This document shows positions 1 to 34,660 of a stretch of 64,000 bases of DNA, in pieces. The first letter of the stretch is position 1, and every line of letters begins with the position of its first letter. The stretch spans positions 496,001 to 560,000 of the forward strand of contig JHUT02000001.1 in NCBI GenBank assembly GCA_000690595.2. Reading direction: 5' to 3'. A model generated the notes under the pieces. It saw only the letters and a program-made list of their open reading frames with translations. It was not told the DNA's origin and did no database searches. Both the position numbers and the translations under genes were made by a program. This DNA is from Natrinema mahii. Lineage in GTDB: Archaea; Halobacteriota; Halobacteria; Halobacteriales; Natrialbaceae.

Positions 1-756
1 GACGAGCGATACGCGGCGGTCGCCCGGACCGCGCGCGACTTCCTCGTCGAGGACCTGAACTACCGGGAGGTCCCCGAGGGCGCGAAGATCGACTATCACA
101 TGAACCACCCGGACGACTCCTACACCCTCAACTCCGCGGCGCTTGGCGCGGGCATGCTCGTCGACCTCTACGAGTACTTCGGCGACGACGAGTACCGCGA
201 GCGGGCGACGAAGATCCTCGATCACGTCGTCGCCAACCAGACCGACCGCGGCGGGTGGCCCTACCGGCTGCCGGCCTCGGCCTCCCACCTCTCGATGGAC
301 AGCCACCACAACGGCTTCATCATCGAGTGTCTCCAGCGCTATCGCGACGTCGTCGACGCGGATCGGTACGCCGACGCGCTCGAGACGGCCCTCGAGTTCT
401 ACCGGACCGAACTGTTCGACGTAGACGGCGCGCCGAACTTCGACGAGGAGAACGCCTATCCCCGGGACATTCACGCCAGCACGCAGGGGATTCTGGTGTT
501 TACCCGCGAGGGCGAACTGGACGTCGCCGAGCGGATCCTTCGGTGGGTCCTCGCGAACCTCCAGCCCGAACAGGGACGGTTCTACTACCGGAAGTATCGC
601 CACCACACGAAACGGGTGACGCTGATGCGCTGGTGCCAGGGCTGGATGTCCTACGCGCTCTCGGAGTTCCTGCTCGCGAGCGCGGACCGATCCGGGCCCG
701 ATCGGGTGCCGGAGCGTCGCAGGGCGGCCGACCCGTCGGCGGTCGGTGACCGATGA
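1..756 (+). CDS. Alpha/alpha-toroid (terpene cyclase/GH-like) protein, C-terminal part
   Basis: The reading frame is open from base 1, so the gene starts outside the window; 251 residues are visible. The sequence shows helical repeats rich in Trp, Tyr and His, with a segment HMNHPDDSYTLNSAALGAG and a later YYRKYRHHTKRVTLMRWCQGW. This is the look of an alpha/alpha toroid fold as in prenyltransferase-like and glycoside-hydrolase-like proteins. Haloarchaeal relatives are often misnamed antibiotic ABC transporter permease, but no membrane segment is seen here. It overlaps the following glycosyltransferase by ATGA, so the two are one translation unit and a role in glycan processing is inferred. 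Substrate unknown. Confidence 0.8.
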   Translation, partial: DERYAAVARTARDFLVEDLNYREVPEGAKIDYHMNHPDDSYTLNSAALGAGMLVDLYEYFGDDEYRERATKILDHVVANQTDRGGWPYRLPASASHLSMDSHHNGFIIECLQRYRDVVDADRYADALETALEFYRTELFDVDGAPNFDEENAYPRDIHASTQGILVFTREGELDVAERILRWVLANLQPEQGRFYYRKYRHHTKRVTLMRWCQGWMSYALSEFLLASADRSGPDRVPERRRAADPSAVGDR

Positions 757-1907
757 GTCGATCCGGGGCGTCGTCGCGTCCGGAGCGGCCGGGGGCGGCG
801 TCCGCAGCGACGGCAACGGCGTCGGGGGAGCCGGCGGACGGGGCACCGACAGTCGACGATCGCCGGGTCCTCGTCGTGACGGGGCTGGGACACAAAAACG
901 AGCGCCACTACGGGCCGCTCGCCGACGTCGCCGGGGAGACGACCATGGTCTGTCTGGATCCGACCGGCGACCTCGAGTCCGCGCGGACCGTCCGCGTCCC
1001 CGAGATCGGCCCGCGGCCCGTCCGCGTCCTCTTCCTCTTCGTCCTCGCGCTGTACGAGGGGTATCGCAACGATTACGACGCGGTCGCGTCGATCTCGCTC
1101 GTCCCCTACGGGTGCTACGCGCTCGCACTGAAAGCGCTCTACGGCTACCCCGCCCACCTCGGGATCATCGGGATCGATCTCGACCACCACGCCGAACAGT
1201 GGTACGGTCCCGTCCCGCGGTGGCTGTTCAGGCGCTTCGACGCGGTGTCGGTCCCCGGCACCTCACACGCCGAGCGACTCGTCCGGTTCGGCGTCCCGCC
1301 CGCCCGGATCGAACGGCTGACGAACGCGATCGACGTCGACACCTATCGGCCGCCGGCACGGGCGGTCGAGACCGACTACGAGTTCGTCTGGATCGGCCGG
1401 TTCAGCGCCGAAAAGGATCCGCTGCGGTTCGTCGACGCCCTCGCCGAACTCGAGGCGGCCGACCGGGAGTTCCGGGCGGTCATGGTCGGCGACGGCCCCC
1501 TCCGGTCGGCCGTCGTCGACGAACTCGCCGCCCGCGGGCTGGCCGACCGGGTCGACTGCCCCGGCTGGGTGGACGAGCCGCTCGAGTACTACCGCCGATC
1601 GGCGACGTTCGTTTTGACCTCCGAGCGGGACGCCTTGCCGCTGGTCATGCTCGAGGCGATGGCGACCGGCCTGCCCGCGGTCGTCCCGCCGGTGGGGTCG
1701 ATCCCGGACATCGTGACCGACGGCGAGAACGGGCTCGTCGTCGCCGATCGCGAGCCCACGACCATCGCGGCGGCGATGGCGCGGTGTCTGGACGACCCCG
1801 AGTTCCGTCGCTCGCTCGGGGCCAACGCGGCGGCGGTCCGGTCGGACGTCTCGCTCGAGCGGGCGAGCGAGGACTGGCGGCGGATCCTGGCGGCCCTCGA
1901 GCGGTGA
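753..1907 (+). CDS. Glycosyltransferase family 4
   Basis: This is a 384-residue GT-B enzyme expected to transfer a sugar from a nucleotide-sugar donor to a lipid-linked or polymeric glycan at the cytoplasmic face. The first about 45 residues are a low-complexity acidic/Ala tail before the Rossmann strand RRVLVVTGLGHKNERH. The C-terminal donor domain begins near residue 209 (EFVWIGRFSAEKD), and the E-x7-E type donor motif lies around residues 290-312 (LPLVMLEAMATGLPAV). The start is fixed by the ATGA overlap with the upstream toroid-fold gene. The specific sugar cannot be read from sequence. Confidence 0.93.
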   Translation: MSRSGASSRPERPGAASAATATASGEPADGAPTVDDRRVLVVTGLGHKNERHYGPLADVAGETTMVCLDPTGDLESARTVRVPEIGPRPVRVLFLFVLALYEGYRNDYDAVASISLVPYGCYALALKALYGYPAHLGIIGIDLDHHAEQWYGPVPRWLFRRFDAVSVPGTSHAERLVRFGVPPARIERLTNAIDVDTYRPPARAVETDYEFVWIGRFSAEKDPLRFVDALAELEAADREFRAVMVGDGPLRSAVVDELAARGLADRVDCPGWVDEPLEYYRRSATFVLTSERDALPLVMLEAMATGLPAVVPPVGSIPDIVTDGENGLVVADREPTTIAAAMARCLDDPEFRRSLGANAAAVRSDVSLERASEDWRRILAALER

Positions 1908-2018: not shown

Positions 2019-3032
2019 ATGGACATCGAACGGCTGACCCTCGAGGAGTGGGGCGACGCCCTGCCGGCGACGGGCTACGAGGTGTTTCACGAGCCGGACG
2101 CATTGGACGTTCTCGACGACCACACCGACGCGGAGCGACAACTGTACGGCGCGTTCAAGGGCCAGCAGCCGGTCGGCCTGTTGCCGGTGTTTGTCGACGA
2201 GCGTTCGATCGGCCGGACGGTCCTCTCACCGCCGGTCTCGCTCAGCGTGCCGCGGCTCGGCCCGATCCTCGATCCGGCCAGCCCGAAGCGCCACAAGCGC
2301 GAACGGATCAACCGGGAGCTGACCGCCGGCGTGATCGACGCCGTCGGCGTCGGCGACCGGACGACGCTCTTTCGGATGCGCTGTCCGCTCGAGTACGTCG
2401 ATCCCCGCCCCTACGAGTGGAACGACTTCTCGCTCGAGCCGCGGTTCACCTACGTCCTCGACTGCGAGGGCGAGACGATCGAGAGCCTGATGACGGGCTT
2501 CAGCAAGAGCCTGCGCCGGGAGATGCGCAAGAAAGACGAGCTGGATCTCACGGTCGAACGGGAGGGGATCGAGTCGGCCCTGCGGGTCTACGAGGACGTG
2601 GTCGAACAGTACCGGGCCCACGACGATTCGCCGCCGATCTCGCGGGCGTTCCTCCGTGATCTCCTCACCGCCCTGGACGACGACCTGTGGCGAGTCTACG
2701 TCGCCCGGACCCCCGACGGCGAGTACCAAAGCGGCGTCGTGACCCTCTACTCGCCCGACCTCGCGTACTTCTGGCAGGGCGGGGTGACGGCCACCTACGA
2801 GGGCGTCAGCGTCAACAGCCTCCTCCATCGGGCCATTCTCGAGGACATCCTCACCGATCCCGCCCTCGAGTCGGTGACTGGCTACGACCTCGTCGGCGCG
2901 AACACCGAACGGCTCTGTGAGTACAAGGCCAAGTTCAACAGCGACCTCCGCCAGTACTACGTCGTCGAGTCGTCCGGCCTCGAGATGTCGCTGGCGAAGA
3001 CGGCCTATCAGAAACTCTCGCGGGTCAAATAG
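2019..3032 (+). CDS. FemAB/GNAT-like aminoacyl- or acyltransferase, paralog 1
   Basis: The protein has 337 residues and the double-GNAT layout of the FemAB family. The N-terminal half carries FKGQQPVGLLPVF and the C-terminal half ends with a YDLVGANTERLCEYKAKFN motif that recurs in the paralogs at 10241 and 33647. Bacterial FemAB proteins add amino acids to peptidoglycan precursors; archaea of this kind lack murein, so modification of a glycan or glycolipid is inferred. It is the most divergent of the three copies: the FSSDARSN-type segment of the others is FSKSLRREMRKKDEL here. It is transcribed alone from an ATAACAA promoter and faces the beta-helix gene convergently. Confidence 0.9.
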   Translation: MDIERLTLEEWGDALPATGYEVFHEPDALDVLDDHTDAERQLYGAFKGQQPVGLLPVFVDERSIGRTVLSPPVSLSVPRLGPILDPASPKRHKRERINRELTAGVIDAVGVGDRTTLFRMRCPLEYVDPRPYEWNDFSLEPRFTYVLDCEGETIESLMTGFSKSLRREMRKKDELDLTVEREGIESALRVYEDVVEQYRAHDDSPPISRAFLRDLLTALDDDLWRVYVARTPDGEYQSGVVTLYSPDLAYFWQGGVTATYEGVSVNSLLHRAILEDILTDPALESVTGYDLVGANTERLCEYKAKFNSDLRQYYVVESSGLEMSLAKTAYQKLSRVK

Positions 3033-3153: not shown

Positions 3154-5271
3154 TCAGTCTCGAACGTCGTACTCGACGTCGACGCTGGCGTCGCCGGTCA
3201 GCCGGAAGTCGACGATGTCGCCGTCGAACCAGTAGGCGTCGAGCGAGTCGGCGACGCTGCCACTGACCGTCGCCCCGTCGATGACGTCGCCGTCGTCGAC
3301 GGTGGCGTCGCGGTAGCTCGAGGCGACGACGTCGCCGTCGGTTTCGAAGGCGTACGACGATTCGCCGTCCGCGTCGCTGCCGTCGATCGTGATCGCGTGT
3401 GGCAACAGTTCGGACTCACCGATCTCGTCCGGGTCGACCTCCTCGTCGTCGACGTAGACGTTGGCCGAGCCGTTGGTGAACGTGATGTCGCTGACGGTGC
3501 CGGAGAACTGGAACCGCTGCACGCCGCGTTCGATCGATCCGTCGACGGTGTTTTCGGCAATGGTCGCCGACGCCGCCGCGTCGTCGCCCACCGCCGCGTC
3601 GATCGTCCCGTCGACGCTGATCTCGTAGTTCGCGGCCGACCCGTTCCCGACCAGCGTCAGGACGTGTGGCCGTTCGTCGCCGTAATCGGCCGGATCGACC
3701 TGTTCGCCGTTGACGTAGACGCGTGCGGTCCCGTCGACGGTGAGTTCCTCGAGATCGCCGCTAAAGCGGAAGGCGTCGCGCCAGCCGCCGACGGAGCCGG
3801 TGACGGTGCCGCTCTCGATGCGGTCGTCGGCGTTGATCGACGCGCTGCCGGCGGTCGACTTCTCGACCGCGCCGCCGACGGTGAACTCGTAGCGGGTCCC
3901 GCCGGCCGTTCCGACGCCGTCGACGAGCAGGGTGTTCTCGAGGTCCGAATCGCCGACCGAGTCGGGATCGATCTCCTCGCCGTCGAGTTCGACCCACATC
4001 ACGTCGGGGTTATCGACGCTGATCGAGGTGAGTGAGCCGTCGACGCGGTAGGCGTCGCCGTGGCCGCCGCCGGTGACGCCGCCGGCGCGCCACGTGCCGT
4101 CCGCGGACTCGACGAAGTCCTCGGACGTGTAGGTCCCGCCCTCGATGTTCCCGCCGGAGGGGCTCTCGTAGGGTGCGTCGGCGAACTCGACGGGACCGTC
4201 GGCCGTGAACTCGTAGCTCGCGTACCTGGCCTCGGGGTCGGTGACGAACGCGAGGAGGCTGCCCGCGGACTCGCTCTCGTCGTCCGAGCCGTCGCTGCTC
4301 CCGCCGGTCGAGCCGTCGCTCGAGCCGGACGCGGCCTCCTCCGCGGTCACCGGCACGCCCTCGACTTCCTCGGGTGTGGTCCGCTGGGCCGACCCCGCGC
4401 TCGAGCCGTCGAGCGTCGCGGCGCTCGCAACGTGTGACGAGCCGTATCGGGTATTACGCAGCGTACAGGTTGGGGACTCCACGGACAGCCCGGCTTCGCC
4501 GACGTAGAGGTCGGAAATCCGACACTCGGAGAGGTCACAGTCGACGACCTCGGCGCTGCGGTGGCGCACCCAGACGCCGCGGTGGGCGTTGACGGCGACG
4601 CAGTTTTCCACCCGGGAGCCGTCGGAGCCGACCCGCCACGCTGCGGGCTCGAGGTCGGCGGCGAAGGAGTCCTCGATGATGACCGGTCCGTTGCCGCTGC
4701 GGCCGGCTTCAGAGGCGTAGACGGCGTTGTCAGCGACGTGCTGAATGTTGACGTTGCTGATCGTCAGCTCCCCGGCGTGATTGCGGTTGACGTAGATCCC
4801 GTTGGGGCTGTTCGGATAGTCGGTACTGATCGCGCCGTCGCCCATGTAACAGTTCTCGATCCGCCCGGTCGCGTCGGCGCTCTCGACCGCGCAGTAGATG
4901 AACGCCTCGCGGTTGGTCGTGTCCCAGACGCCGCGCCAGCCGATGTTGCGAACGGTCCAGTTGTCGCCGACCGCGTTGATCCGCGCCTCGGCGCCGTCGG
5001 CCGAGATGTCGATAAGTTTGTTCTCGAACGTCTCGCCGTCGTCGAGCCTGTACTCCCAGAGTTCGCCGGCCGGTACTTCGATCAGTTCGTAATCACTGGT
5101 TGCGGCGCCGGTTCCAGCGCCGGTGATTCCGGCCCCGACCAGCGAGGCCACGCCGGCCGCTTTCAGGTACGATCGGCGGCCCAGTAATCTGTTATTACTG
5201 CCGATATCGCCCGTCTCAGAACCGCTGTCGATATTTCTTCCGTCATCCGAATCCGCTTCGTCGCGTGCCAT
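3154..5271 (-). CDS. Tat-exported right-handed beta-helix protein with four C-terminal repeat modules
   Basis: The protein has 705 residues from ATG at 5271 (MARDEADSDDG). This start is preferred to an upstream TTG because the paralog at 20547 also begins MARD after an equivalent promoter. A Tat signal is seen (RRSYLKAAGVASLVGAG). Next comes DYELIEVPAGE and a parallel beta-helix of about 280 residues with WTVRNIGW-type turns and a run of asparagine-rich rungs. A Ser/Gly/Asp linker with the repeated SSDGSTGGSSDGS pattern leads to about four tandem modules of about 85-90 residues, each with YEFTVGG, DAFRFSG and VDPADYG-like signatures; the first module is divergent. Extracellular or surface-bound carbohydrate binding or lyase-like activity is inferred; no catalytic residues can be assigned. 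Confidence 0.9.
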   Translation of the reverse strand: MARDEADSDDGRNIDSGSETGDIGSNNRLLGRRSYLKAAGVASLVGAGITGAGTGAATSDYELIEVPAGELWEYRLDDGETFENKLIDISADGAEARINAVGDNWTVRNIGWRGVWDTTNREAFIYCAVESADATGRIENCYMGDGAISTDYPNSPNGIYVNRNHAGELTISNVNIQHVADNAVYASEAGRSGNGPVIIEDSFAADLEPAAWRVGSDGSRVENCVAVNAHRGVWVRHRSAEVVDCDLSECRISDLYVGEAGLSVESPTCTLRNTRYGSSHVASAATLDGSSAGSAQRTTPEEVEGVPVTAEEAASGSSDGSTGGSSDGSDDESESAGSLLAFVTDPEARYASYEFTADGPVEFADAPYESPSGGNIEGGTYTSEDFVESADGTWRAGGVTGGGHGDAYRVDGSLTSISVDNPDVMWVELDGEEIDPDSVGDSDLENTLLVDGVGTAGGTRYEFTVGGAVEKSTAGSASINADDRIESGTVTGSVGGWRDAFRFSGDLEELTVDGTARVYVNGEQVDPADYGDERPHVLTLVGNGSAANYEISVDGTIDAAVGDDAAASATIAENTVDGSIERGVQRFQFSGTVSDITFTNGSANVYVDDEEVDPDEIGESELLPHAITIDGSDADGESSYAFETDGDVVASSYRDATVDDGDVIDGATVSGSVADSLDAYWFDGDIVDFRLTGDASVDVEYDVRD

Positions 5272-5572: not shown

Positions 5573-6745
5573 TCACCGATGAGTGGTCGGCCGGGCCCGC
5601 GGTTCCGCGGCGACGGTCGTACAGAAATCGATCAGCGATTCCGCCTGACTTCGCCAGGAGTACCGCTCGGCGACGGTTCGGCCGGCGGTACCGAGTCGGT
5701 CGCGGAGCCGCGGCGACGAGACGAGCCGGCGGAGAGCGGCCGCCAACTCCGCCGGCTCACCGGGCTCGACGAGGAGGCTGTTCTCCTCGTGTGTGGCGTA
5801 TGCCTCGACGCCATCGACCCGAGTCGTCACGACGGGGACTCCACACGCCATCGCCTCGATGTTCACGAGACCGAACCCGTCGTAATAGGTCGGGTAACAG
5901 ACGATATCGCTCGCCGCGTAGTAGCGATGGAGGTCGTCGTGGGGGACCTCACCGAAAAACGTCACGTCGTCCCCGATCCCCAGCTCGCGAACCCGGCGAG
6001 AGAGGGCGTCCGCAATCGAGGCACCCTGCGGACCGGCACCGTCGCCGACGAAACAGAGGTGGGCGTCGTCCGAGAGCGGTTCGAAGGCGTCCAGCAGATC
6101 GAACACCCCTTTCGCCTCGGCGAGTCGACCGACGAACGTGACGGTCGGTTCCGGCCTGTCGAACGCCGGTTCAGCGTCCGGACTGAACCGATCGACGTCC
6201 ACCCCGGGCGTGACGACGTGATCGACTTCGCGGTCGAGGGCGTCAGTGACTGCCGCCGCCGTCGCGTGGGAGTTGGCAACGTGGATGTCGGTGGCCGAGA
6301 GTCGCTCGCGGACCTTCCCGCCGACACCGACGGCCGAGAAGCCGTGATACTGGTAGATCGTCGGAACGTCGACGAGACGGGAAAGGACGAGATCGTCGAG
6401 GTAGTAGTGGGTGATCAAGACGTCGACGGTCGTGTTGATGTGAGCCACGAGACCGGAGCGGATCCCGGCTGCCAGCGTCCGAAGCGAGACGATATCGTCG
6501 TTCCCGAGGATCGGCAGCGACCGCTGTACCGCGGCCGCGAACGCGGTGTCGGGGATCGCCATTTCCACGGTTTCGTATGTCGATTCAGTCGCGTGCGGAC
6601 GTTTCACCCCCGAATAGACGACGCTCTCGGCGAGCGAGTCGACTTCCGCCGCCAGTTCACGGATGAATATCGCCTTCCCACTTGCCTCCCGGAGTCTCGT
6701 CTTGGGATAGTAGTGGCCGATCGTGATCGGCTCCCGTCGCGCCAT
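5573..6745 (-). CDS. Glycosyltransferase family 4
   Basis: This is a 390-residue GT-B fold glycosyltransferase. The N-terminal acceptor domain starts ITIGHYYPKTRLREASGKA with the glycine-containing loop of GT4 enzymes. The donor domain begins near residue 200 (TVTFVGRLAEAKGV) and has VGDGAGPQ, FFGEVPHDDL and the E-x7-E motif in YYDGFGLVNIEAMACGVPVV. It should act in the cytoplasm on the growing glycan. It is only about 26 percent of the way into the island and has its own ATAACAA promoter at 6772-6778. It is upstream of, and on the same strand as, the beta-helix gene, but the 300-nt gap with a separate promoter argues against a shared operon. Confidence 0.94.
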   Translation of the reverse strand: MARREPITIGHYYPKTRLREASGKAIFIRELAAEVDSLAESVVYSGVKRPHATESTYETVEMAIPDTAFAAAVQRSLPILGNDDIVSLRTLAAGIRSGLVAHINTTVDVLITHYYLDDLVLSRLVDVPTIYQYHGFSAVGVGGKVRERLSATDIHVANSHATAAAVTDALDREVDHVVTPGVDVDRFSPDAEPAFDRPEPTVTFVGRLAEAKGVFDLLDAFEPLSDDAHLCFVGDGAGPQGASIADALSRRVRELGIGDDVTFFGEVPHDDLHRYYAASDIVCYPTYYDGFGLVNIEAMACGVPVVTTRVDGVEAYATHEENSLLVEPGEPAELAAALRRLVSSPRLRDRLGTAGRTVAERYSWRSQAESLIDFCTTVAAEPRARPTTHR

Positions 6746-6863: not shown

Positions 6864-8690
6864 TTACTCGCCGGTCGCCGCTGGGACGTAGTACAGTTCG
6901 AACTCGCCGTTCGACTGGACCCGGTTCACGCCGGGTTCGGTCCCGACGGCCTCGAAGTCCCGTTCGGTGTATCGGAGTCCGCGGTACGCGACCACCTCGC
7001 GCTCGTAATCGGCCCGCGTGAGGGCGAGATATCGAGCCTCGTCGTACCGGCCGGCGAGCCCGTCACTGAACGCGGCCGGCGGAACGTCGCCGTGTTTCCA
7101 GCTTCGGTTTTCGTTGCCGCGAACCGCATCGTCGTACCTGTTTGGCCCGTCGCGCAGGCCGAGGAAATCGCGTTCGCCGTCCCGGTTTTCGAACGCGGTT
7201 TCGTAGCCGGTCATGGTCGCGTCAGTCACGTGCGGCGAGGTGTTGTAGATATACGGGGACGGGAAGACGGCGACCAGCGAGAGTACCATCAACAGCGCGA
7301 ACGCCGTCGCGAGCGCCATCGACGCGACGCGACGAGAGCCACCGCTCGAGGACGAGGCAGTGAGGCGGGCGGCGACCCCGTAGATCGCGATCGCGCCGAG
7401 GATCGTCACGAATACCATCATCAATCCGAACACGCGAAAGTACATCTCCGATCCGGGCGCGAAGATATACGCCACGAAGACGGGGCCAAGCGCCACCAGT
7501 GCGGCGATGAAGTACGCGGTCTCGGCACGGACGGCCTCGACCAACCGCGTCCCGCCGAACGCGATCACGCCGAGCGCGAGCCCGCCGGCGAGCAGCGAGA
7601 ACACGAGCTGGGGGAAAAACAGCTTGAGGAAGATCTCCGTCAGACTCCCGCCGATCTCCGTCAGCGACGAGCCCTGCGTTCCGACCGCGTCCGCCGCCGC
7701 GCCGCCCTCACCGGTGACGAACTCGAGGACGGCACCGAGGAAATACTCGAGCGTGCCGGCGAAAAAGCCGTAGTTCGAACTCCAGAGCAAGAACGCGGCG
7801 ACCAGGAACGCCACCTGGCCGTACACGGGCGTCTGATCGGCCATCCGGCCGTACTCGGCACGTCGAGCGAGGTACTGGACAGCACCGATCCCCAGGAAGG
7901 CGGCGATCAGATGCGCCACGAGCTGGGGATGATAGAGGACGGCCGCGACCGATGCGAGCGCGAACGCGACGCCGACGGCGGTGACCGATCGTCCGCGCCG
8001 CTCGGTGCGGAGATACGTCGCGAACAGGTACAGCAGCAGCGACGAGAACAACACCGCCTGTGACATCGCGTGTGCCGACAGATTCATCGAGATCGTCGTG
8101 ATCGGCAACAGCAGGAACGCCGAGAAGGCGGCGACGGCGACCGCTCGCCCGTCCGAGACGATCGTGCCGACACACAGGGGAACGAACAGACAGAACAGCA
8201 GAACGGCGAAGAACACGACGAACAGCATCGACCGCGAGAGCGCGATACCGACCGTCGAGTTGATCAGCGTCGTCACCGTGTGGATGCCGGGGTAGAACAG
8301 ATCGAAGGGAGCGAAGCTCCCCTCGCTGATCCCGCGAGCCCACCCCAAATGGGTCAGCGAGTCGTAGTGGCCGTAGAAGCGGTAACCGCGAACGATCGGA
8401 AGCCCGACGAAGACGACCATCGCGAGACCGCCGAGGACGAGCGCTATCGACCGACTCCGGTGCGGTCGGCTCGTCGCCGTGAACGGCACGAACGCGACCG
8501 CGAGCGAGACGCTCAGTGCGACCAACAGCCCCGCCCAGACCGCCGGCGAGGTCGTCGTATAGATGGAGAGTTCGTATCCGGTCGCCGGATCGGCACGGGC
8601 GACCAGTGCAGTCGCGCTGACAGCGAGAAAGCCGATCGCAAGCACCAGCTTCCGGATCGGGTCGTCGTCGATGGCTGACTGTGGAGGCAT
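6864..8690 (-). CDS. GT-C-like polytopic membrane protein, paralog 1
   Basis: The protein has 608 residues with about a dozen predicted hydrophobic segments up to about residue 470, followed by an exported soluble tail of about 130 residues. The first outer loop holds GHYDSLTHLGWARGISEG, with acidic and His residues placed like the acidic motif of GT-C polyprenyl-phosphate-sugar transferases. The paralog at 16876 keeps DPMTHLGWTRDIVSGG in the same place. Both also share an N-terminal ARANPATAYE-like motif and a loop GTSLTEIGGSL. A role in lipid-linked sugar transfer is inferred, not shown. The protein could also be an uncharacterised transporter. The gene is monocistronic, with an ATAACAA box at 8724-8730. 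Confidence 0.85.
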   Translation of the reverse strand: MPPQSAIDDDPIRKLVLAIGFLAVSATALVARADPATGYELSIYTTTSPAVWAGLLVALSVSLAVAFVPFTATSRPHRSRSIALVLGGLAMVVFVGLPIVRGYRFYGHYDSLTHLGWARGISEGSFAPFDLFYPGIHTVTTLINSTVGIALSRSMLFVVFFAVLLFCLFVPLCVGTIVSDGRAVAVAAFSAFLLLPITTISMNLSAHAMSQAVLFSSLLLYLFATYLRTERRGRSVTAVGVAFALASVAAVLYHPQLVAHLIAAFLGIGAVQYLARRAEYGRMADQTPVYGQVAFLVAAFLLWSSNYGFFAGTLEYFLGAVLEFVTGEGGAAADAVGTQGSSLTEIGGSLTEIFLKLFFPQLVFSLLAGGLALGVIAFGGTRLVEAVRAETAYFIAALVALGPVFVAYIFAPGSEMYFRVFGLMMVFVTILGAIAIYGVAARLTASSSSGGSRRVASMALATAFALLMVLSLVAVFPSPYIYNTSPHVTDATMTGYETAFENRDGERDFLGLRDGPNRYDDAVRGNENRSWKHGDVPPAAFSDGLAGRYDEARYLALTRADYEREVVAYRGLRYTERDFEAVGTEPGVNRVQSNGEFELYYVPAATGE

Positions 8691-8976: not shown

Positions 8977-9987
8977 TCACTCGCCGTCGGTGACGTCGAC
9001 CCAGACGTAGCCGTGGCGGTACGCGTTGTCGATCGTCGGCGTCTCCGGAACGTCCCCGTCGTACAGGAGGACGGTGATCCGGATCGATCCCGCCTCGGCC
9101 TCGGGGGACAGCGTGCGATCGGCGTAGGCCGTGCCGCCGGCGCTGACGTTGTAGTCGATGCGCTGTAACTCGCTGCGTTCGACGACCTCGTCGCCCTCGA
9201 GGCGCTGCTCTTGGACGACGGCCGTGTAGTCTTCGTCCGCGCCCTCCCGGTTCTCGACGGCGATGACCAGCGGGACGGCGTCGCCGGGTTCGATCTCCGA
9301 GGGATAGCCCGACGCGACGAGTTCGCCGGTGTCGTCTTCCGTGAGCAGCCGGAGGCTCGTGTACTGCTCGCCGTCTTGGGGCGCGACGAGCGCGTAGCCG
9401 ACCGTCGTCAGCGCGAGGAGCATGCTGACGACGAGGACGACGTTGACGGCGACGTGGCGCGTCGATCCCGCGTCGAAGATCGCTGCCCGAGCCGCCTCGA
9501 GCCGGCGGCCGGGCCGATAGCGGTCGGCGGGCGGGACCGCCAGTCGGCGGGCGACCGCGACGCCGGTCCCGAGCAGGGTCCCTCCCGCGACGGCGTTGAC
9601 GACGGTCGAGGTGGTGAACCCGAACGGTGTGGCCGCGATCACCAGTCCGAGCGGCGGAAGGAGGGCGAAGCTCAGCCCGAACGACAGCGCCGCTCGCTCG
9701 GCGTCGGACAGCGAGACCGTCTGTCGGAGCAGGGCCCGGTCGGCGGGGCTCGCGGGCGTCTCCCGCGGGAAGAGTGCGGACAGGACCACGTACCCGGGCG
9801 CGAGGAACAACAGCGGGAATCCGACCGCCGCCCGCAGGACCGTCGATTCGGTATCGACGACCGTCAGGAGGACGGCCGCGACGAGGACGAAGCCGGCGAC
9901 ACCGAGCAGATCGAGAGGGGTGCCAACGAGGAGGGACTTGCTTCGCCGCCGCAGGGCCGCAACCGGCTGCAATGGCAGGTCTTTCAT
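8977..9987 (-). CDS. DUF1616 family membrane protein
   Basis: The protein has 336 residues. An N-terminal cytoplasmic stretch (RRRSKSLLVG) is followed by paired transmembrane helices (LLGVAGFVLVAAVLLTVV and GFPLLFLAPGYVVLSALFP). The latter contains the LFLAPGY signature typical of DUF1616. Two more helices sit near residues 120-165 and one near 195, and the C-terminal about 120 residues form an exported beta-rich domain (VENREGADEDYTAVVQEQRLEG). DUF1616 proteins are common in archaeal polysaccharide and surface-glycan loci; their biochemical role is unknown. The gene has its own promoter box (GTAACAA, 10021-10027). Confidence 0.9.
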   Translation of the reverse strand: MKDLPLQPVAALRRRSKSLLVGTPLDLLGVAGFVLVAAVLLTVVDTESTVLRAAVGFPLLFLAPGYVVLSALFPRETPASPADRALLRQTVSLSDAERAALSFGLSFALLPPLGLVIAATPFGFTTSTVVNAVAGGTLLGTGVAVARRLAVPPADRYRPGRRLEAARAAIFDAGSTRHVAVNVVLVVSMLLALTTVGYALVAPQDGEQYTSLRLLTEDDTGELVASGYPSEIEPGDAVPLVIAVENREGADEDYTAVVQEQRLEGDEVVERSELQRIDYNVSAGGTAYADRTLSPEAEAGSIRITVLLYDGDVPETPTIDNAYRHGYVWVDVTDGE

Positions 9988-10190: not shown

Positions 10191-10244
10191 ATGGAACGCC
10201 GAGCGACGACCGCCCCGACCGCACGCGAGGAACCGCGACCATGA
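10191..10244 (+). CDS. Leader mini-ORF coupled to FemAB-like gene 2
   Basis: The ORF encodes 17 residues (MERRATTAPTAREEPRP) and ends in TGA that overlaps the ATG of the next gene as ATGA (10241-10244). It begins 24 nt after a promoter-like box, where a leaderless mRNA would start. Two other genes in the window have the same layout (16835 and 28865). Translation and termination-reinitiation coupling are inferred; the peptide itself may have no function. Confidence 0.35.
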   Translation: MERRATTAPTAREEPRP

Positions 10245-11251
10245 GCGTCGACGTCCGCGTCGCGACGGGGGACGATCTGGACCGGTGGAACGGGTACGTC
10301 GAGCGATCGCCACAGGGGCGACTGTGTCACGAACTCGAGGCGCTGCGGGTACAGGCCGACCACGCGGACGCAACGTTGCATCCGCTGGTGGGGTTCAAAG
10401 GACAGGAGCCGGTGGGGATCTTTCCCGTCTTCGAGATCCGGAAGCAGTTCGTGACGACGGCGTTTTCGCCGCCGCCGGGCCTCCGCGTTCCCTACCTCGG
10501 GCCGGCATTCCTGAACATGGGGAAGCTGAAACAACGCAAGCGCGAGCGCCGCCGGCAACGGTTCATGGACGGCTGCTTCGAGTGGATCGACTCCGAACTG
10601 AATCCGAAGTACGGACACGTCCGCACCGCAACGGCCTTCGACGACGCGCGGCCGTTCCAGTGGAACGAGTACGACGTGACGCCGGCCTACACCTACGCGG
10701 TCGACCTCGAGCGCGACGAAGACGACCTCCTCATGTCGTTCAGCAGCGACGCGCGGAGCAACATCCGCAACGCCGACGACGACGCCTACGAGATCGCCGT
10801 CGGCGGCCGCGAGGAGATCCGGCTGATCCACGAGCAGGTCCGGAACCGGTACGAGTCCCAGGGGATCGACTTCGACGTCCCGCTCGCGTTCGTCCTCGAT
10901 CTCGCCGAGGGGTCGCCGAACGGCCACGTCCGCCCCTATACCCTCCGGGTCGACGGCGAGTTCGTCGGCGGCATCCTCGCGCTGGAGTACGGCGACACCG
11001 TCGGCCGCTGGCTCGGCGGCGTCCGCACCGACGCCGACGTCGACGTCCCGACCAACGACCTCCTCGACTGGGCGATCATGCGCGACGGACTCGAGCGCGG
11101 CCTCGAGACCTACGACCTCGTCGGGGCCGACACCCGCCGGATCAACCGCTACAAGGCGAAGTTCAACCCCGAGTTGCGGACCTACTACAGCCTCGAGTAC
11201 GGCTCCTGGGGGGTCCGGCAGGTCGCGTCGCTGTACGACTCGGTCAAATAG
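10241..11251 (+). CDS. FemAB/GNAT-like transferase, paralog 2
   Basis: The protein has 336 residues. It shares with the copy at 33647 the segments VGFKGQEPVGIFPVFE, FSSDARSN-IRNADDD, and the C-terminal YDLVGADTRRINRYKAKFNP. These define a tightly related subfamily of FemAB-like transferases, while the copy at 2019 is more distant. The start MSVDVRVATGDD matches MSIDIRQLDPRAD of the paralog at 33647, which fixes it despite a longer open frame upstream. Transfer of an amino acid or acyl group to a glycan, lipid or amino-sugar acceptor is inferred from the family. Translation is probably coupled to the mini-ORF at 10191. Confidence 0.9.
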   Translation: MSVDVRVATGDDLDRWNGYVERSPQGRLCHELEALRVQADHADATLHPLVGFKGQEPVGIFPVFEIRKQFVTTAFSPPPGLRVPYLGPAFLNMGKLKQRKRERRRQRFMDGCFEWIDSELNPKYGHVRTATAFDDARPFQWNEYDVTPAYTYAVDLERDEDDLLMSFSSDARSNIRNADDDAYEIAVGGREEIRLIHEQVRNRYESQGIDFDVPLAFVLDLAEGSPNGHVRPYTLRVDGEFVGGILALEYGDTVGRWLGGVRTDADVDVPTNDLLDWAIMRDGLERGLETYDLVGADTRRINRYKAKFNPELRTYYSLEYGSWGVRQVASLYDSVK

Positions 11252-11299: not shown

Positions 11300-12394
11300 T
11301 TAGTTCCTGTCGTGGCTGAGGTACGTCGTCGCCCAGTTGTCGCCGTCGTCGATCGCGTCGCCGCCGAGCGTCCAGTCGGATTCCGTCGAGAGCGGTCGGA
11401 CCATCAGCGTCGTCGTCTCCGTTACGGGCGAAAGCGGCGGCTTGTCGTCGGGCAGAAAGCCCCGTTTCAGGAGCGTCGTTCGGGGAATCGAGTCGGGCGA
11501 GGCGACCAGCAGGTCGGCCGCCCGGTTGTCCGCGAGGACGGCGGTCAAGAGCCGTTCGCGGACGGCGGTCGACCCGTCGGCACCGGAGCGGACGTCGAGG
11601 ATCATCGTCCGCGTCAGTCCGGGGGACCGGTCCGTCCCGGTAATCATCGCGGCGCGGTCCCGGTCGCCGTCGGTCGCGAGATACGCGCGGTACTCCCAGT
11701 CGGGCCTGCGGAGCCGCCACTGCAGGAATCGCTCGTCTCGCGGGACGTGGAACCCGTCGGGAACCGACTCGCGATAGAGCGACGCGAGACGCGCCGCTGG
11801 AACGGGTTCGTGACGGCGGACGCTGACATCGGCCCCCGTCGATCCGCCGTCCGCAACGAGATCCCACGCGGCCAGATACCCCCTCGCGACCGGTGAAGCG
11901 GCGCTCGAGGCGAGGGCCATGACGCCGTCGCCACTCCCGGCGGCGATCGCCGCCGGATCGTGGATGCGGTAGTACGACCCGCGTTCGGCGGCCACTCGCC
12001 AGCCGAGCTGTCGGTTGCCGGCGCGGGTCTTGCTGTTAGGGAAGTTGAAACAGAGTTCCGGCTCGCCGTCTCGGTAGTCCTCGATCGCCGCCTCGGTCAG
12101 CCGTGTGAACAGCCCCTGACGGCGGTGGGCCTCGTGGACCATCGTGTCGCACGGTTGTACCGCACGGACGACAGTGCGGCTCGTCCGGAGCGGCAGGGCG
12201 AAAAACGAGCGCGCACCGACGATCTCACCGTTTGCCGCCGCGACGTAGATCGGGACGTGGTCGGCGTAGGGGTTGTCCCGGTACTTCCACCGGAACCACT
12301 CCTCGTCCGGCCGCCGCCCGAAGACGTCGTCGTACAGCGACAGGTACCCCTCGAGGTCCCCGCGCCGAAACCGCCGAATCGTGTAGTCAGTCAT
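11300..12394 (-). CDS. GNAT family N-acetyltransferase
   Basis: The protein has 364 residues from MTDYTIRRFRRGDLEGYLSL. The acetyl-CoA binding motif A appears as TMVHEAHRRQGLFTRLTEAA near residues 95-112. The layout, with a second GNAT-like half, resembles Eis-type enzymes (Acetyltransf_9). N-acetylation of an amino sugar exposed by the neighbouring deacetylase, or the reverse, would be a natural pairing but is inference. The start at 12394 gives an 8-nt ATGACTGA overlap with the stop of the deacetylase gene; an ATG at 12421 is possible but less likely. Confidence 0.88.
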   Translation of the reverse strand: MTDYTIRRFRRGDLEGYLSLYDDVFGRRPDEEWFRWKYRDNPYADHVPIYVAAANGEIVGARSFFALPLRTSRTVVRAVQPCDTMVHEAHRRQGLFTRLTEAAIEDYRDGEPELCFNFPNSKTRAGNRQLGWRVAAERGSYYRIHDPAAIAAGSGDGVMALASSAASPVARGYLAAWDLVADGGSTGADVSVRRHEPVPAARLASLYRESVPDGFHVPRDERFLQWRLRRPDWEYRAYLATDGDRDRAAMITGTDRSPGLTRTMILDVRSGADGSTAVRERLLTAVLADNRAADLLVASPDSIPRTTLLKRGFLPDDKPPLSPVTETTTLMVRPLSTESDWTLGGDAIDDGDNWATTYLSHDRN

Positions 12395-13364
12395 CGTCGC
12401 CGACCGATCGAGCGGCGCCATCGGTCGTGGCCTCGTGTGTGGCGTCGTCCAGAACGCGATCCGTCACGTCGGCCATCGTCTCGACCGAGAGCAGCCCGCG
12501 GTCGCGCCGGTCGGCGACGTACGAGAGGATCCGACGGAGCCGGTCGCAGTCGGACTCCCGGACCAGGTTGTTCGGGTGGAGCCAGACGTGGAAGACGCCG
12601 TCGCGCTCCGCCGCCGCGTCGATCCCCAGCTTGGCCTGTCTGACGACGGGATCCTCGCCGACCGTCCGAGCGACGCGACGAGCGGGACCTTCGAACGAGA
12701 AGAGATCCAGCGAGGCCGGGACGGTCACGAGACCGTGTTCGTCCACGGTCGGTCGAACGAGCGGTGGCGGCGTCTCGCCGACGGTGTAGCTCGCGAACTT
12801 CGCGAGCGGATACGCCGGCGAGTCGTCGTACCAGCGCGGCGGCGAGACGCCCCGGTACCCCCTGAACCCGTGTTCGGCCAGGAGGCCCCGAAACGCGACG
12901 ACGTTGCGCGGGAAGACAAACGACGAGGCGGACAGCTCGCGTTCGCGAGCGATCTCGGCACAGCGTCGAATCTCCGCGGCCGCGATCGCGGGCGTGATCC
13001 GGTCCCGGTCGAACACCGCGTGGGAAAACGAATGCCACCCGATCTCGTGATCGGCGTCCGCGTCCCGGAGCCGCTCGACGAGGTCCGGACCGAACCACCG
13101 CTCGTTCTCGCTCGCGTCACCGCCGGGGTCGGGAGTGAACCATCCCGAGTCCGCCGCGGGATGCTCCCGATGAGCCCCGTCGCACTCCTCGAGCAGCAGG
13201 TGGCCGACGACGGCCCAGGTGGCGGGGATCGAGTGACTGTCGAAGATGTCGATCGCCCGTCGCCATCCCGTCCGGGCACTTCGGATCCGTCGTTCGGGGG
13301 GCGACTCCAGATCGTGAAACCCCCAGGCGAGTTCGGAATCGAGAGAGACGACGATGGTTCCCAT
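12387..13364 (-). CDS. Polysaccharide deacetylase (NodB-like)
   Basis: The protein has 325 residues from MGTIVVSLDSELAWGF. The first metal-region Asp is in SLDSELAWG, the paired histidines are in EIGWHSFSHAVFD near residue 160, and an Arg-containing motif follows in VFPRNVVAFRG. These match the CE4/NodB fold with haloarchaeal variations. There is no signal peptide, so it should act in the cytoplasm on a nucleotide- or lipid-linked N-acetyl sugar, or on another amide. The start at 13364 leaves a 37-nt gap to an ATAACAA box, whereas upstream in-frame starts run into low-complexity sequence. It overlaps the GNAT gene by 8 nt and forms an operon with it. Confidence 0.9.
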   Translation of the reverse strand: MGTIVVSLDSELAWGFHDLESPPERRIRSARTGWRRAIDIFDSHSIPATWAVVGHLLLEECDGAHREHPAADSGWFTPDPGGDASENERWFGPDLVERLRDADADHEIGWHSFSHAVFDRDRITPAIAAAEIRRCAEIARERELSASSFVFPRNVVAFRGLLAEHGFRGYRGVSPPRWYDDSPAYPLAKFASYTVGETPPPLVRPTVDEHGLVTVPASLDLFSFEGPARRVARTVGEDPVVRQAKLGIDAAAERDGVFHVWLHPNNLVRESDCDRLRRILSYVADRRDRGLLSVETMADVTDRVLDDATHEATTDGAARSVGDDD

Positions 13365-20520: not shown

Positions 20521-20546
20521 CTGGTAGTGTCGTATTACCCGATTGC

Positions 20547-26622: not shown

Positions 26623-26623
26623 A

Positions 26624-26636: not shown

Positions 26637-26673
26637 ATTCAAGATGAATAAGGGTGTCGGCTTCAACCCCGGG

Positions 26674-28785: not shown

Positions 28786-28864
28786 CTGCGGCGGCCTCAC
28801 CGCCGCAGTCTCGCGGCTCGAGCCGAGGCCAATATTCAAGGTCGCGTGTTCGAACCGTACTGAT

Positions 28865-30682: not shown

Positions 30683-31792
30683 TCACCGCCGGAGGCGGTC
30701 GCCGACGGTTTCGATCGCGCTCGGCTCGATTCCCTGGTGGACCGGCAGGGCGACGACCGACTCGGCGTAGCGGTTCGCCGTCTCGTAGGCGTCGTCGCCC
30801 CGCACCGACGCCCGGAGGATCGGCCAGGTGTGGGCACCGGCGACGCCGCAGTCCTCGAGGTCGGCGAGCAACGACGACGAGTCGGCCGCCAGCACGGGGT
30901 ATTCGTAAGGGCTGATGCCGGGTGGGAGCTCCGCGTACAGCGGTGTGAGATCGTTTCGGTCGGCCAGCACGCGGCCCCACGCGCGGAAGTTCTCGCGGCG
31001 GGCGGTCCTGATCGCGTCCGGATCGGCGGCGTCGGCGACGGTTGCCGAGAGCTTCGACATCGGTGCCTTCGCGGCCTCGTATCTGGCGGTCGGATCGACG
31101 CTCGAGACATCGTCGTCGTCGAGGAACGACTCGATCGATCGGTAGAGCGGGTCGAGTGCGGTCTCGGCGACCGACGTGGCGAGGAATCGACAGTCGGTGG
31201 CACCGATCCGGCTCGCCCGGCCGGCCAGCGACGACGGCTCGAACGCCGCTTCCACCTCGTCGCTGGCCCGGTAGAGGACGGCCCCGTCGGGGACCGGCAG
31301 CAACTTTCGCAGCGTCGTGAACCCGAGGTCGCCGTGAGTCCCCAGGAGTCGGCCGTCCGCGACGCTGAGCGGCCCGTGGGCGTTGTCGTCGACGTGATAG
31401 CAGCCGTACTCGTCGGTCAGGTCGGCGAGCCGCTCGAGGCCGGGCTGGGGGAACCCGAAGTAGTTGACCGAGGTGACGGCGACAGTGTCCTCGTCCATCC
31501 GGGACTCGAGGTCGGCGAAATCCGGGGCGAGGGACGGTTCGAGGGCGTAGAACCGGGGCTCGAGCCCGAGTTCGCGGAACGGTTCGACGACGGCCGGCGA
31601 GAGGTACGCGGGGACGAGGACGTTGCCGCCGGATTCGACGAGGCCGGCGAGGCCGTCCCGAAGCGCGACCTTGCCGGCACCGTAGTAGGCGTAGCCGACG
31701 CCGGGAGCGTGGCGCTCGACGTAGGCGTCGATCCCCCCGGGGTCCGACCGCGAGAGCGAGGCGTCGAACACGGACGGGGTCGCACTGATCAT
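30683..31792 (-). CDS. DegT/DnrJ/EryC1/StrS-type PLP-dependent aminotransferase
   Basis: The protein has 369 residues. The fold-type I features are YYGAGKVALRDGLAGL near residue 36, SVNYFGFPQP near 105, the PLP-pyridine Asp region VDDNAHGPLS near 135, and a candidate Schiff-base Lys in FTTLRKLLPVPDGAVLY near 160. These enzymes transaminate keto-sugar nucleotides to amino sugars for surface glycans. The PLP-Lys context is divergent, so activity needs confirmation. The gene ends close to and faces the HerA-like gene; its promoter has no clear ATAACAA box. Confidence 0.85.
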   Translation of the reverse strand: MISATPSVFDASLSRSDPGGIDAYVERHAPGVGYAYYGAGKVALRDGLAGLVESGGNVLVPAYLSPAVVEPFRELGLEPRFYALEPSLAPDFADLESRMDEDTVAVTSVNYFGFPQPGLERLADLTDEYGCYHVDDNAHGPLSVADGRLLGTHGDLGFTTLRKLLPVPDGAVLYRASDEVEAAFEPSSLAGRASRIGATDCRFLATSVAETALDPLYRSIESFLDDDDVSSVDPTARYEAAKAPMSKLSATVADAADPDAIRTARRENFRAWGRVLADRNDLTPLYAELPPGISPYEYPVLAADSSSLLADLEDCGVAGAHTWPILRASVRGDDAYETANRYAESVVALPVHQGIEPSAIETVGDRLRR

Positions 31793-32021: not shown

Positions 32022-33650
32022 ATGGCAGGTTCGACGGACGGAGACGACCTTCGGCTGCTCGTCGTCGGGCTCGACGCGGGCTGTCTACCGATACTCGAGC
32101 CGCTGTTCGAGTCGGGCGAGCTACCGACGCTACAGGGGTTGTTCGCGGAGGGGACGGCGGGGCCGCTCGAGTCCCAGATCCCGCCGTGGACCGCGAGCGC
32201 CTGGCCGTCGCTGTACACCGGCAAGAACCCGGGGAAACACGGCGTCTACGACTTCCTCACCTTCGACGGCTACGACTGGGACGTGGTCAACGCGACCCGC
32301 GTCCGGGCGCGACCGATCTGGGAACTGCTGAGCGATCACGGCCGCTCGAGCGTCGTCGTCAACGTCCCCGTGACCCATCCGGCACGGGAGTTCGACGGCG
32401 CACTGATACCGGGGCTGACCGCCCCCGAGGAGCCGGCCTGTCACCCCGAGAGGATCCTCGAGGACGTCAAGCTCGCATGCGGGGGCGAGTACTGGATCTA
32501 TCCCCAGAGCGGGCCGGCACCGGACCGCTCGATCGAGGGCTACGAGCGGACGATCGAACTCCGAGGGAAGGCGTTTCGCTACCTCGCCCGGCGGTTCGCC
32601 CCCGACTTCGGCTTCCTGCAGTTCCAGCAGACCGACTCGGTGTTTCACGAGCGACCGGGGGACAGGCGGGCGATCGAGGCCGTCTACCGGGAGGTCGATC
32701 GACAGGTGGCCGAAACCATCGAACGGACCGAGCCCGAGAACGTCCTGGTCGTCAGCGACCACGGGATGGGGAAAGTGACCGGCGACGAGTTCCGGCTCAA
32801 CGAGTACCTCCGTGAGGCGGGCTACGTCAGCGCCCGCAGCGGCGGCGAGGGGATGCCCGACTGGTCGAAGACATGGGAGAACGACCTCCTCTACGGTGCC
32901 GAAGCCAGCGATCGGGAGCCAAGCGCCGTCGAACGGGCGCTCAACGCCGCCGCGACGGTCGGGCTCACGACCCAGCGGATCGCGAGCGCGCTCGAGCGAG
33001 TCGGCCTGAAGGAACCGATCGGCAAGCGGGTTCCCAACGACGCCATCCGGGCGGCGAGCGAACAGGTCGACTTCCCCGAATCGACGGCCTACGTCCGCTC
33101 GAAGAGCGAACTCGGCGTTCGCATCAACCTCGAGGGCCGCGAGCCCGACGGCACGGTATCGCCCGAGGAGTACGAGACCGTCCGGGAGGACCTCATCGCG
33201 TCGCTGTCTGCCGTCCGGACGCCCGACGGCGAGCCGATGTTCGAGGCGGTCGAGCCGCGGGAGACCTACTTCGAGGGGCCACACGTCGAGGCGGCCCCGG
33301 ACGTGATGACGGTCCCCGCGGACTTCGACAACGCGATCTCCGCCGATCTCGGCAGGGAGCGGTTCGGCGAGCCGATGGAGCCGTGGAACCACAAGCGCAC
33401 TGGCGTCGTCGCGGCCACCGGCCCGGCGTTCGACGCATCGGCCGGCCTCGAGGGGGCGACCATCTTCGATATCGCGCCGACGATCTGTTCGCTGTTCGGC
33501 GTGCCGGTCGACGACGACATGGACGGCGAGCCGCTGCCAGCCGTCGACGGCGGTCGGCGGCGATCGTATCCGGCCTACGATCCGGAGCCGATCACCGCGA
33601 CCGACGACGGAACCGTCGAAGACCGACTCTCGGACCTCGGGTATCTATGA
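32022..33650 (+). CDS. Alkaline-phosphatase-superfamily phosphodiesterase, paralog 2
   Basis: The protein has 542 residues from MAGSTDGDDLRLLVVGLDAG. It is strongly similar to the protein at 13590: the segments around the nucleophile (PPWTASAWPSLYTGKNPGKHG), TDSVFHERPGD, SDHGMGKVTGDEFRLNEYL and WNHKRTGVVAATG align without gaps. Predicted cytoplasmic. Acting on a phosphodiester of a glycan or lipid intermediate is inferred. Translation of the next FemAB-like gene is coupled by an ATGA overlap, so the two enzymes are likely to work on the same substrate. Confidence 0.92.
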   Translation: MAGSTDGDDLRLLVVGLDAGCLPILEPLFESGELPTLQGLFAEGTAGPLESQIPPWTASAWPSLYTGKNPGKHGVYDFLTFDGYDWDVVNATRVRARPIWELLSDHGRSSVVVNVPVTHPAREFDGALIPGLTAPEEPACHPERILEDVKLACGGEYWIYPQSGPAPDRSIEGYERTIELRGKAFRYLARRFAPDFGFLQFQQTDSVFHERPGDRRAIEAVYREVDRQVAETIERTEPENVLVVSDHGMGKVTGDEFRLNEYLREAGYVSARSGGEGMPDWSKTWENDLLYGAEASDREPSAVERALNAAATVGLTTQRIASALERVGLKEPIGKRVPNDAIRAASEQVDFPESTAYVRSKSELGVRINLEGREPDGTVSPEEYETVREDLIASLSAVRTPDGEPMFEAVEPRETYFEGPHVEAAPDVMTVPADFDNAISADLGRERFGEPMEPWNHKRTGVVAATGPAFDASAGLEGATIFDIAPTICSLFGVPVDDDMDGEPLPAVDGGRRRSYPAYDPEPITATDDGTVEDRLSDLGYL

Positions 33651-34660
33651 GCATCGATATACGCCAGTTGGATCCACGAGCCGACGCCGAGGAGTGGAAC
33701 CGCTACGTCGAGCGCTCCGACGGGACGAACCCGTTTTTCCGGGCGGAGGCGCTTGCGTTGCAGGCCGAGGAAACCGACACGATCGCCCATCTCCTCGCCG
33801 GGTTCAAGGGACAGGAACCCGTCGGGATCTTTCCCGTCTTCGAGTACGCGAAGGGACCGATCACCGGCGCGTTCTCGCCGGCTCCCCACTCGTGGACGAG
33901 CTATCTCGGCCCCGCCCTGTTGAACGTCGCGAAGCTCAAACGGCGCAAGGCGGATCGGCGGATCAAGCGCTTCCTCGAGGGCTGTCTCGAGTGGATCGAC
34001 GAGGAGGTGTCGCCGCTGTATAGCAAGTTCGTCACCGATGCCGCGTTCGACGACATCCGCCCGTTCCGCTGGAACGAATATGACGTCGACCCCGGCCACA
34101 CCTACGTCGTCGACCTCGAGGGCAGCGAGGAGGAGTTGCTGAAACGGTTCAGTAGCGACGCCCGCAGCAACGTCCGCAACGCCGACGACGAGAGCTACGT
34201 GATCGAGGAGGGCGACGGCGACGACGTCGAACGCATCGTCGAGAAGGTCCGGCAACGCTACGAGAGCCAGGGCCAGCCGTTCCGGCTGCGGCCCGGCTTC
34301 GCGCGGTCACTGTACGAGACGCTGCCCGAGGGCGCGGTCCGGCCCTACGCCTGTCGGGTCGACGGCGAGTTCCTCGGTGGCATCCTCGTCGTCGAGTCCG
34401 ACCGCACCCGCTACCGGTGGCAGGGCGGCGTCAAACCCGATGTCGACATCGACATCGCGATCAACGACCTGCTGGACTGGCACGTCATGCGCGACGGCCT
34501 CCACGAGGGGATCGACGAATACGACCTCGTCGGGGCCGGCGTCCCCAGCATCAACCGCTACAAGGCCAAGTTCAACCCCCGCCTCGAGACCCACTACGAG
34601 ATCACGCGGGGCGCGTTCGGGATCGACCTTCTCGTCGATCAGTATCAGAAACACCGGTAG
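33647..34660 (+). CDS. FemAB/GNAT-like transferase, paralog 3
   Basis: The protein has 337 residues. The start MSIDIRQLDPRADAEEW follows from the ATGA overlap with the phosphodiesterase gene. It matches the paralog at 10241 closely: FKGQEPVGIFPVFEYAK, FSSDARSNVRNADDESY and YDLVGAGVPSINRYKAKFNP. It is a FemAB-type acyl- or aminoacyltransferase with a likely glycan or glycolipid substrate, by inference. Convergent with the NSS symporter gene. Confidence 0.92.
   Translation: MSIDIRQLDPRADAEEWNRYVERSDGTNPFFRAEALALQAEETDTIAHLLAGFKGQEPVGIFPVFEYAKGPITGAFSPAPHSWTSYLGPALLNVAKLKRRKADRRIKRFLEGCLEWIDEEVSPLYSKFVTDAAFDDIRPFRWNEYDVDPGHTYVVDLEGSEEELLKRFSSDARSNVRNADDESYVIEEGDGDDVERIVEKVRQRYESQGQPFRLRPGFARSLYETLPEGAVRPYACRVDGEFLGGILVVESDRTRYRWQGGVKPDVDIDIAINDLLDWHVMRDGLHEGIDEYDLVGAGVPSINRYKAKFNPRLETHYEITRGAFGIDLLVDQYQKHR

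Follow-up and report, generated by a model that had tools for sequence, protein, structure and literature searches.

The stretch of DNA analyzed here (the window) comprises 64,000 nucleotides (G000:C1:496001-560000) of a haloarchaeal (Natrialbaceae) genome of 3.79 Mb and contains a large set of glycan-related genes, among them those for three FemAB-like transferases (g03, g08 and g22), whose possible role in attaching amino acids to a sugar is the subject of this analysis. Genes were called with a codon-usage script, which leaves start codons approximate, and their families were assigned by Pfam profile search (Table 1). Apart from the identity of the phosphodiesterases, the class of two membrane proteins and the bounds of the island, this search confirmed the gene content listed in an earlier reading of the letters alone (the sequence-only reading): the three FemAB-like proteins, two proteins of the phosphodiesterase superfamily, the PP-loop protein with its Cys4 site, the overlapping deacetylase-GNAT pair, the DegT protein and three beta-helix proteins predicted to be exported by the twin-arginine translocation (Tat) pathway were all found.

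Table 1. Glycan-related genes of the window (positions in the window; AF2, AlphaFold2; pLDDT, predicted local distance difference test; AlkP, alkaline phosphatase; PLP, pyridoxal phosphate)
Gene	Feature	Position	Strand	Basis
	C-terminal part of alpha/alpha-toroid protein, gene starts upstream at L007:19395	1..756	+	weak Pec_lyase/GH76/GH88-like
	GT4-type glycosyltransferase	753..1907	+	PF00534 E=3.5e-33
g03	FemAB-like transferase, clade linked to WecB/VimE-like deacetylase locus	2019..3032	+	PF13480 E=9.9e-21; tree
g04	Tat-exported beta-helix protein	3154..5271	-	PF13229 E=1e-5 (just below cut-off); RRSYLKAAG
	GT4-type glycosyltransferase	5573..6745	-	PF00534 E=1.6e-40
g06	polytopic GT-C-like membrane protein	6864..8690	-	DUF6541 below cut-off; ~13 hydrophobic spans; A6 family
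	DUF1616 membrane protein	8977..9987	-	PF07760 E=1.5e-90
g08	FemAB-like transferase, partner of g11	10241..11251	+	PF13480; PF02388 25.8 bits; TIGR03019 E=7.6e-6
	GNAT (Acetyltransf_9), overlaps deacetylase gene	11300..12421	-	PF13527 E=3.4e-16
g10	polysaccharide deacetylase-like	12387..13364	-	PF01522
g11	AlkP-superfamily phosphodiesterase	13590..15203	+	PF01663 E=2.3e-32; catalytic residues conserved
g12	PP-loop (QueC/QatC-like) protein, Cys4 motif	15223..16530	-	AF2 pLDDT 88; Foldseek QatC, QueC
g13	polytopic GT-C-like membrane protein	16876..18663	+	34% identical to g06; ~11 spans
g14	Tat-exported beta-helix-like protein	19174..20124	+	TRRNYVRSL; synteny with g13
g15	Tat-exported beta-helix protein, start 20505 or later	20505..22355	+	HRRSYMKLAG; PF13229 E=0.003 (below cut-off)
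g20	DegT-like PLP protein, divergent from phosphodiesterase-FemAB operon	30683..31792	-	PF01041 E=3.9e-12; position conserved
g21	AlkP-superfamily phosphodiesterase	32022..33650	+	PF01663 E=1.9e-35
g22	FemAB-like transferase, start overlaps g21 stop by ATGA	33647..34660	+	PF13480; AF2 pLDDT 90.8

The conserved glycan island is real, but it is not the one continuous block at 1-34660 that had been proposed. Genes for sugar nucleotides reach approximately 25 kb to the left of the window, so that the glycan genes span about G000:C1:470.7 kb to 530.7 kb, and within the window they are interrupted at 22.7-30.7 kb by genes unrelated to glycans (22767-30669), namely those for a DUF7344 regulator, a transcription factor B (TFB), an XPB-like helicase and HerA.

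The three FemAB-like genes are the only ones of this type in the whole genome, with pairwise identities of approximately 30-54%. Compared to the gathering cut-off of PF02388 (24 bits) g08 lies above it, g22 (23.2 bits) and g03 (19.5 bits) below. In a tree the clade of g03, which is linked to deacetylase genes, is set apart with full support from a branch holding g08 and g22, whose members are mostly linked to phosphodiesterases. A structure prediction, which had been suggested as a check, yielded an AlphaFold2 model built from 34 sequences that has the double GNAT fold of the FemX type, with a template modelling (TM) score of about 0.7 to FemX. Ranked first in the PDB come Sbb17 and Sba18, solved in the presence of streptothrisamine, followed by FemX, MprF and FemA; these best matches are tRNA-dependent aminoacyltransferases, one of them acting on an amino sugar. 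The related enzyme Orf11 glycylates streptothrisamine using Gly-tRNA, and the catalytic residue of FemX is Lys305 (PMC12945691). Two lysines, K306 and K308, are invariant across the 34 FemAB sequences and lie at about the position of this residue. We infer that the FemAB-like proteins would use aminoacyl-tRNA as donor. A difference to the FemX/FemA and Orf11/Sbb17-type transferases is that archaea have no peptidoglycan.

These structural and profile matches to aminoacyl-tRNA-dependent enzymes make it unlikely, though still worth serious consideration, that the FemAB-like proteins are coenzyme A (CoA)-dependent acyltransferases which put acyl groups back on the deacetylated amino sugars of an exopolysaccharide without any amino acid being involved, as could be suggested by the naming of PF13480 as an acetyltransferase domain, by the public annotation "GNAT family N-acetyltransferase" and by tandem-GNAT acetyltransferases lower in the list of structural matches. 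A motif scan of the 34 sequences revealed no consistently placed CoA loop (Q/RxxGxG/A), the sporadic matches, mostly RWQGGA, being judged to lie on a strand and not in a loop. The ability of VimA to specify serine or glycine in vivo (PMC7468200) also speaks against an acyltransferase of this kind.

VimA belongs to one of the closest known systems. In Porphyromonas gingivalis and Tannerella forsythia the Wbp enzymes make a di-N-acetylated uronic acid, the proposed role of VimE is removal of its C2 acetyl group, VimA adds serine or glycine, and a swap of VimA between the species leads to a swap of the amino acid (PMC7468200). In the same source VimA is reported to match the FemAB family TIGR03019 and a similar chemistry is suggested for FemAB proteins linked to exosortases, the passages considered being confined to bacterial genomes. 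In favor of a VimA-like role, homologues of the archaeal FemAB proteins match this same family with E-values down to 6.6e-21.

Counterparts of this gene set lie upstream of the window. Four genes whose ends overlap or abut (L006:14722-19026) code for a hexapeptide acetyltransferase, a full-length DegT aminotransferase (E=6.5e-121), a Gfo/Idh oxidoreductase and a UDP-sugar dehydrogenase. Homologues of WbpA, WbpB, WbpE and WbpD occur together here; they would provide the WbpD, WbpE, WbpB and WbpA activities, respectively, for a 2,3-diacetamido-uronic acid. A WecB gene (L007:12124) scores above its curated cut-off. As the upstream dehydrogenase is closest to UDP-ManNAc dehydrogenases among the equivalog models compared, synthesis may begin with the manno configuration, and either route gives the same sugar class. 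Directly after WecB follows a deacetylase (L007:13181-14221) that among the NCBIfam models matches VimE best (E=9e-17, 60.8 bits), with homologues reaching up to 100.6 bits (E=7e-29); the other deacetylase, g10, has no VimE match. The product of the next gene (L007:14218-15546) seems to be secreted and has a hydrophobic span at its C terminus. It has no NCBIfam match, and its relatives in another locus (L037) end in a PGFG-like tail.

Because the FemAB alignment was too divergent for a scan, we used the VimE-like deacetylase to scan one genome per species (84,980 species) and then looked for FemAB genes at the loci. A FemAB gene on the same strand lies within 3 kb in 59 of the 79 deacetylase loci, and in 28 cases the two genes overlap or are at most 60 bp apart, so that a gene neighborhood of the VimE-VimA type is found from Archaeoglobi (Archaeoglobus), Methanoperedens, Methanosarcina, Methanogenium and haloarchaea (Haloferax) to Clostridia, Bacteroidales, Chloroflexi and others. 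Looking from the side of FemAB in the other classes of the phylum, a same-strand deacetylase is present within three genes in 11 out of 19 loci. The full set of wbpA, wbpB, wbpD, wbpE, wecB, deacetylase and two FemAB genes is found in seven loci, every one of them from Haloferax; the annotated cluster of Haloferax mediterranei is an example and additionally contains an asparagine-synthase-related gene. Close groups of three or four FemAB genes were seen in other archaea of the phylum (L134, L138, L142, L149). Such grouped FemAB proteins could lengthen an amino-acid chain or act at several sites.

The parallel to VimE and VimA together with the FemAB fold makes assembly of an aminoacylated glycan, as put forward by the sequence-only reading, the best interpretation of the island; phospho-decoration of the glycan, the other part of that proposal, is a guess. 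On balance we favor the view that the island makes and exports a surface polysaccharide or lipid-linked glycan with an amino-acid-bearing 2,3-diamino-uronic acid, most likely by an aminoacyl-sugar pathway that is an archaeal variant of Wbp/Vim and has been extended in haloarchaea. The WbpA/B/E/D-type enzymes and WecB would lead to UDP-2,3-diacetamido-uronic acid, the VimE-like deacetylase would expose an amine, and g03 in the role of VimA would move the aminoacyl group from aminoacyl-tRNA onto it. The GT4, GT-C-like and DUF354 proteins could then assemble the glycan, with synthesis taking place in the cytosol and export across the membrane following. Gene content, conserved pairing and fold are what the analysis shows; substrates, tRNA donor and the sequence of steps are inferred. 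The likeness to the known system comprises the WbpA/B/D/E-type genes, an epimerase of the WbpI/WecB type and a FemAB/VimA-like transferase as neighbor of a VimE-like deacetylase, while the island differs in being archaeal, in its additional phosphodiesterase and PP-loop genes and in its spread over tens of kb. Type IX secretion is, to our knowledge, not known in archaea.

Several observations weigh against this view. None of the FemAB proteins reaches the TIGR03019 cut-off of 260 bits: the two window proteins with a match score 25.2 and 16.7 bits, the best relative 75 bits, and g03, the proposed VimA counterpart, has no match to this model at all. Likewise no deacetylase reaches the VimE cut-off (NF053580, 440 bits). 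The FemAB alignment to FemX stops at FemX residue 295, so K306 and K308 correspond to Lys305 by position alone, and proteins with a GNAT fold can use acyl-CoA. In the window genome g03 is separated from the VimE-like deacetylase by about 7.8 kb with other genes in between, and WbpS (TIGR03108) is absent, with no match in the genome at E<=1e-60. WbpS is dispensable in P. gingivalis. As the scores stay below the curated cut-offs or reach them only in part, we do not claim membership in Wbp/Vim or FemABX and propose a similar mode of working.

A comparable arrangement is known from bacterial XrtA/PEP-CTERM exopolysaccharide loci, in which a deacetylase (TIGR03006) and a FemAB protein (TIGR03019) also occur together, and a relative from Nitratidesulfovibrio is located in such an exosortase/exopolysaccharide locus. 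The archaeal island differs by scores far below the equivalog cut-offs and by the lack of an exosortase. The respective archaeal enzyme was searched for with TIGR04178, PF09721 being insensitive for archaeosortases; the window genome has a single ArtA, located on another contig. The archaeosortase was rejected as a partner of FemAB, since ArtA is present as a single copy in all 116 Halobacteria genomes and FemAB in 67 of them, without co-occurrence. For the same reasons we regard it as very improbable that the aminoacyl sugar made by FemAB is a linker for surface proteins joined by an archaeosortase, in the way the Por sortase uses the Wbp/Vim sugar, even though the mechanistic parallel (PMC7468200) and the bacterial relative in an exosortase locus point in this direction.

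The second constituent of the island is the pairing of FemAB with AlkP-superfamily phosphodiesterases. g11 and g21 had been described as near-identical, whereas we find 59% identity. A third such phosphodiesterase with about 31% identity lies upstream (L007:8323-9801 as called), its start having been called too late, as the profile match begins at G000:C1:484236 (G000:C1:484236-485798). Beside it are genes for a deacetylase, Gfo/Idh, DUF362 and an epimerase in an arrangement conserved across Natrialbaceae. The g11 residues D15, T54, D199, H203, D240, H241 and H451 are conserved in 21-25 out of 25 sequences, which includes the threonine nucleophile and the metal ligands, and the enzyme is predicted to be soluble, with neither signal peptide nor membrane spans. 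A single-sequence search of the PDB with g11 gave no match; by profile search the closest solved relatives are phosphonoacetate hydrolase (PhnA) and NPP.

The reported ATGA overlap at 33647 holds (ctATGA at 33647-33650, stop of g21 and start of g22), and the pairing is far more frequent than expected by chance. Among 62 full-length FemAB genes from haloarchaeal loci selected by FemAB, 44 have a phosphodiesterase gene on the same strand within 4 kb, with an exact 4-bp overlap in 17 pairs; the chance expectation was roughly estimated to be below one. PDE-type (phosphodiesterase) proteins occur in all 116 Halobacteria genomes, and every genome with a match above 600 bits is also FemAB-positive when the two tables are compared. 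A mirror-tree correlation between both families (r=0.77, 0 of 2000 permutations) is taken as supportive only, since shared species history confounds it. Most likely the module is a haloarchaeal addition to the aminoacyl-sugar pathway, in which a related intermediate would be the target of g08 and of g22, either one having a cytosolic phosphodiesterase as partner. Our guess is that the latter acts on a nucleotide- or lipid-linked sugar by hydrolysis or transfer.

In Natrialbaceae the g20-g22 module sits between HerA and GlmM/GlmS. This separate location, the AlkP type of the phosphodiesterase and the presence of MprF, which aminoacylates lipids, among the structural matches would suit a separate system merely adjoining the polysaccharide genes, e.g. 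one that modifies a phospholipid or a lipid-linked intermediate. We consider this improbable, given that in other families the same pair is found within clusters of LbH, DegT, UDP-sugar dehydrogenase, deacetylase, Wzx and DUF354 genes, and that the tree places the three FemAB paralogues in a single family. HerA, often together with XPB, flanks the DegT-phosphodiesterase-FemAB module in many Natrialbaceae. Beside beta-helix genes near phosphodiesterase-FemAB pairs there is often a gene for a conserved protein of only about 72 amino acids (L068:8505-8723, eight loci).

The PP-loop protein g12 carries the motifs TGGVDS and C-x7-C-x2-C-x2-C (TGGVDS or SGGVDS in the family, with invariant cysteines), and members of its family were found in each of the 28 Natrialbaceae genomes sampled and in four further genomes. 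Foldseek matches its AlphaFold2 model to QatC over the whole length (E=8.5e-7, 430 columns, TM 0.35) and to QueC over the core (TMt 0.61-0.69), the global TM being low (0.35-0.39). By sequence, PF06508 is matched by only one of 16 family members (E=0.012), and PDB searches gave no match with the single sequence and nothing credible with the family profile. The family has no Pfam model. In most of the loci compared g12 is divergent from a GT-C-like gene and two beta-helix genes and lies near the third phosphodiesterase, a deacetylase and a Gfo/Idh gene, with a matching gene order annotated on pHTUR04 of Haloterrigena turkmenica. Relatives are encoded among clustered sugar genes on Priestia plasmids, P. 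megaterium carrying tandem copies (L108:11944-14557). A role as anti-phage QatC was rejected because of this glycan-related synteny and the lack of a PADLOC match. Enzymes of the QueC family form amides or nitriles from carboxylates in an ATP-dependent manner, and the N-sugar amidotransferase WbpG is a member of the same superfamily (PMC13329287). By analogy, and because WbpS is missing, it is plausible that g12 forms a uronamide or other amide; as a guess, it may activate the carboxylate for this purpose and so replace WbpS.

The GT-C class of the two multi-span membrane proteins, named as such by the sequence-only reading, is only weakly supported: DUF6541 was found below cut-off in 7 out of 13 family members, one member matches Mannosyl_trans4 (E=0.0078), and a family profile search of the PDB gave no credible match. 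The idea that the exported glycan is bound by the beta-helix proteins found no support beyond the fact that GT-C-like and beta-helix genes keep their synteny in Natrialbaceae. One may speculate, although we believe it to be quite improbable, that an ancient two-domain pathway for the tRNA-dependent aminoacylation of diamino-uronic acids was duplicated in haloarchaea, where an AlkP-type enzyme and a QueC/QatC-like ligase were added to it. The products would be amine-bearing linkers through which surface proteins, the Tat-exported beta-helix proteins perhaps among them, are fastened to the glycan.

The earlier statement that no such pathway is characterized in archaea agrees with the open literature searched, in which no characterized archaeal FemAB glycan pathway and no paper linking FemAB with haloarchaea was found. 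The passages considered in papers on Haloarcula hispanica exopolysaccharide and on exopolysaccharide deletion in H. mediterranei do not name the island genes. The statement needs to be qualified in that the pathway is known from bacteria and amino-acid-bearing glycans from archaea: the N-glycan of Methanococcus, likewise an archaeal glycan combining a diamino-uronic acid with an amino acid, has threonine at position 6 of ManNAcA, the attaching enzyme being unidentified at the time of the 2010 review (PMC2952790). If our proposal is true, many archaea and bacteria have in common a Wbp/Vim-like way of making aminoacyl sugars, which would then not be peculiar to Bacteroidetes, and archaeal FemAB proteins gain a predictable sugar substrate. 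The proposal also provides a testable context for the PP-loop family and for the widespread uncharacterized phosphodiesterase-FemAB pair, and H. mediterranei, a species with established gene deletion methods, offers a compact deacetylase-FemAB cluster on a plasmid (L110:13348-18230). The alpha/alpha-toroid protein at the left edge of the window recurs near FemAB genes in other haloarchaea.

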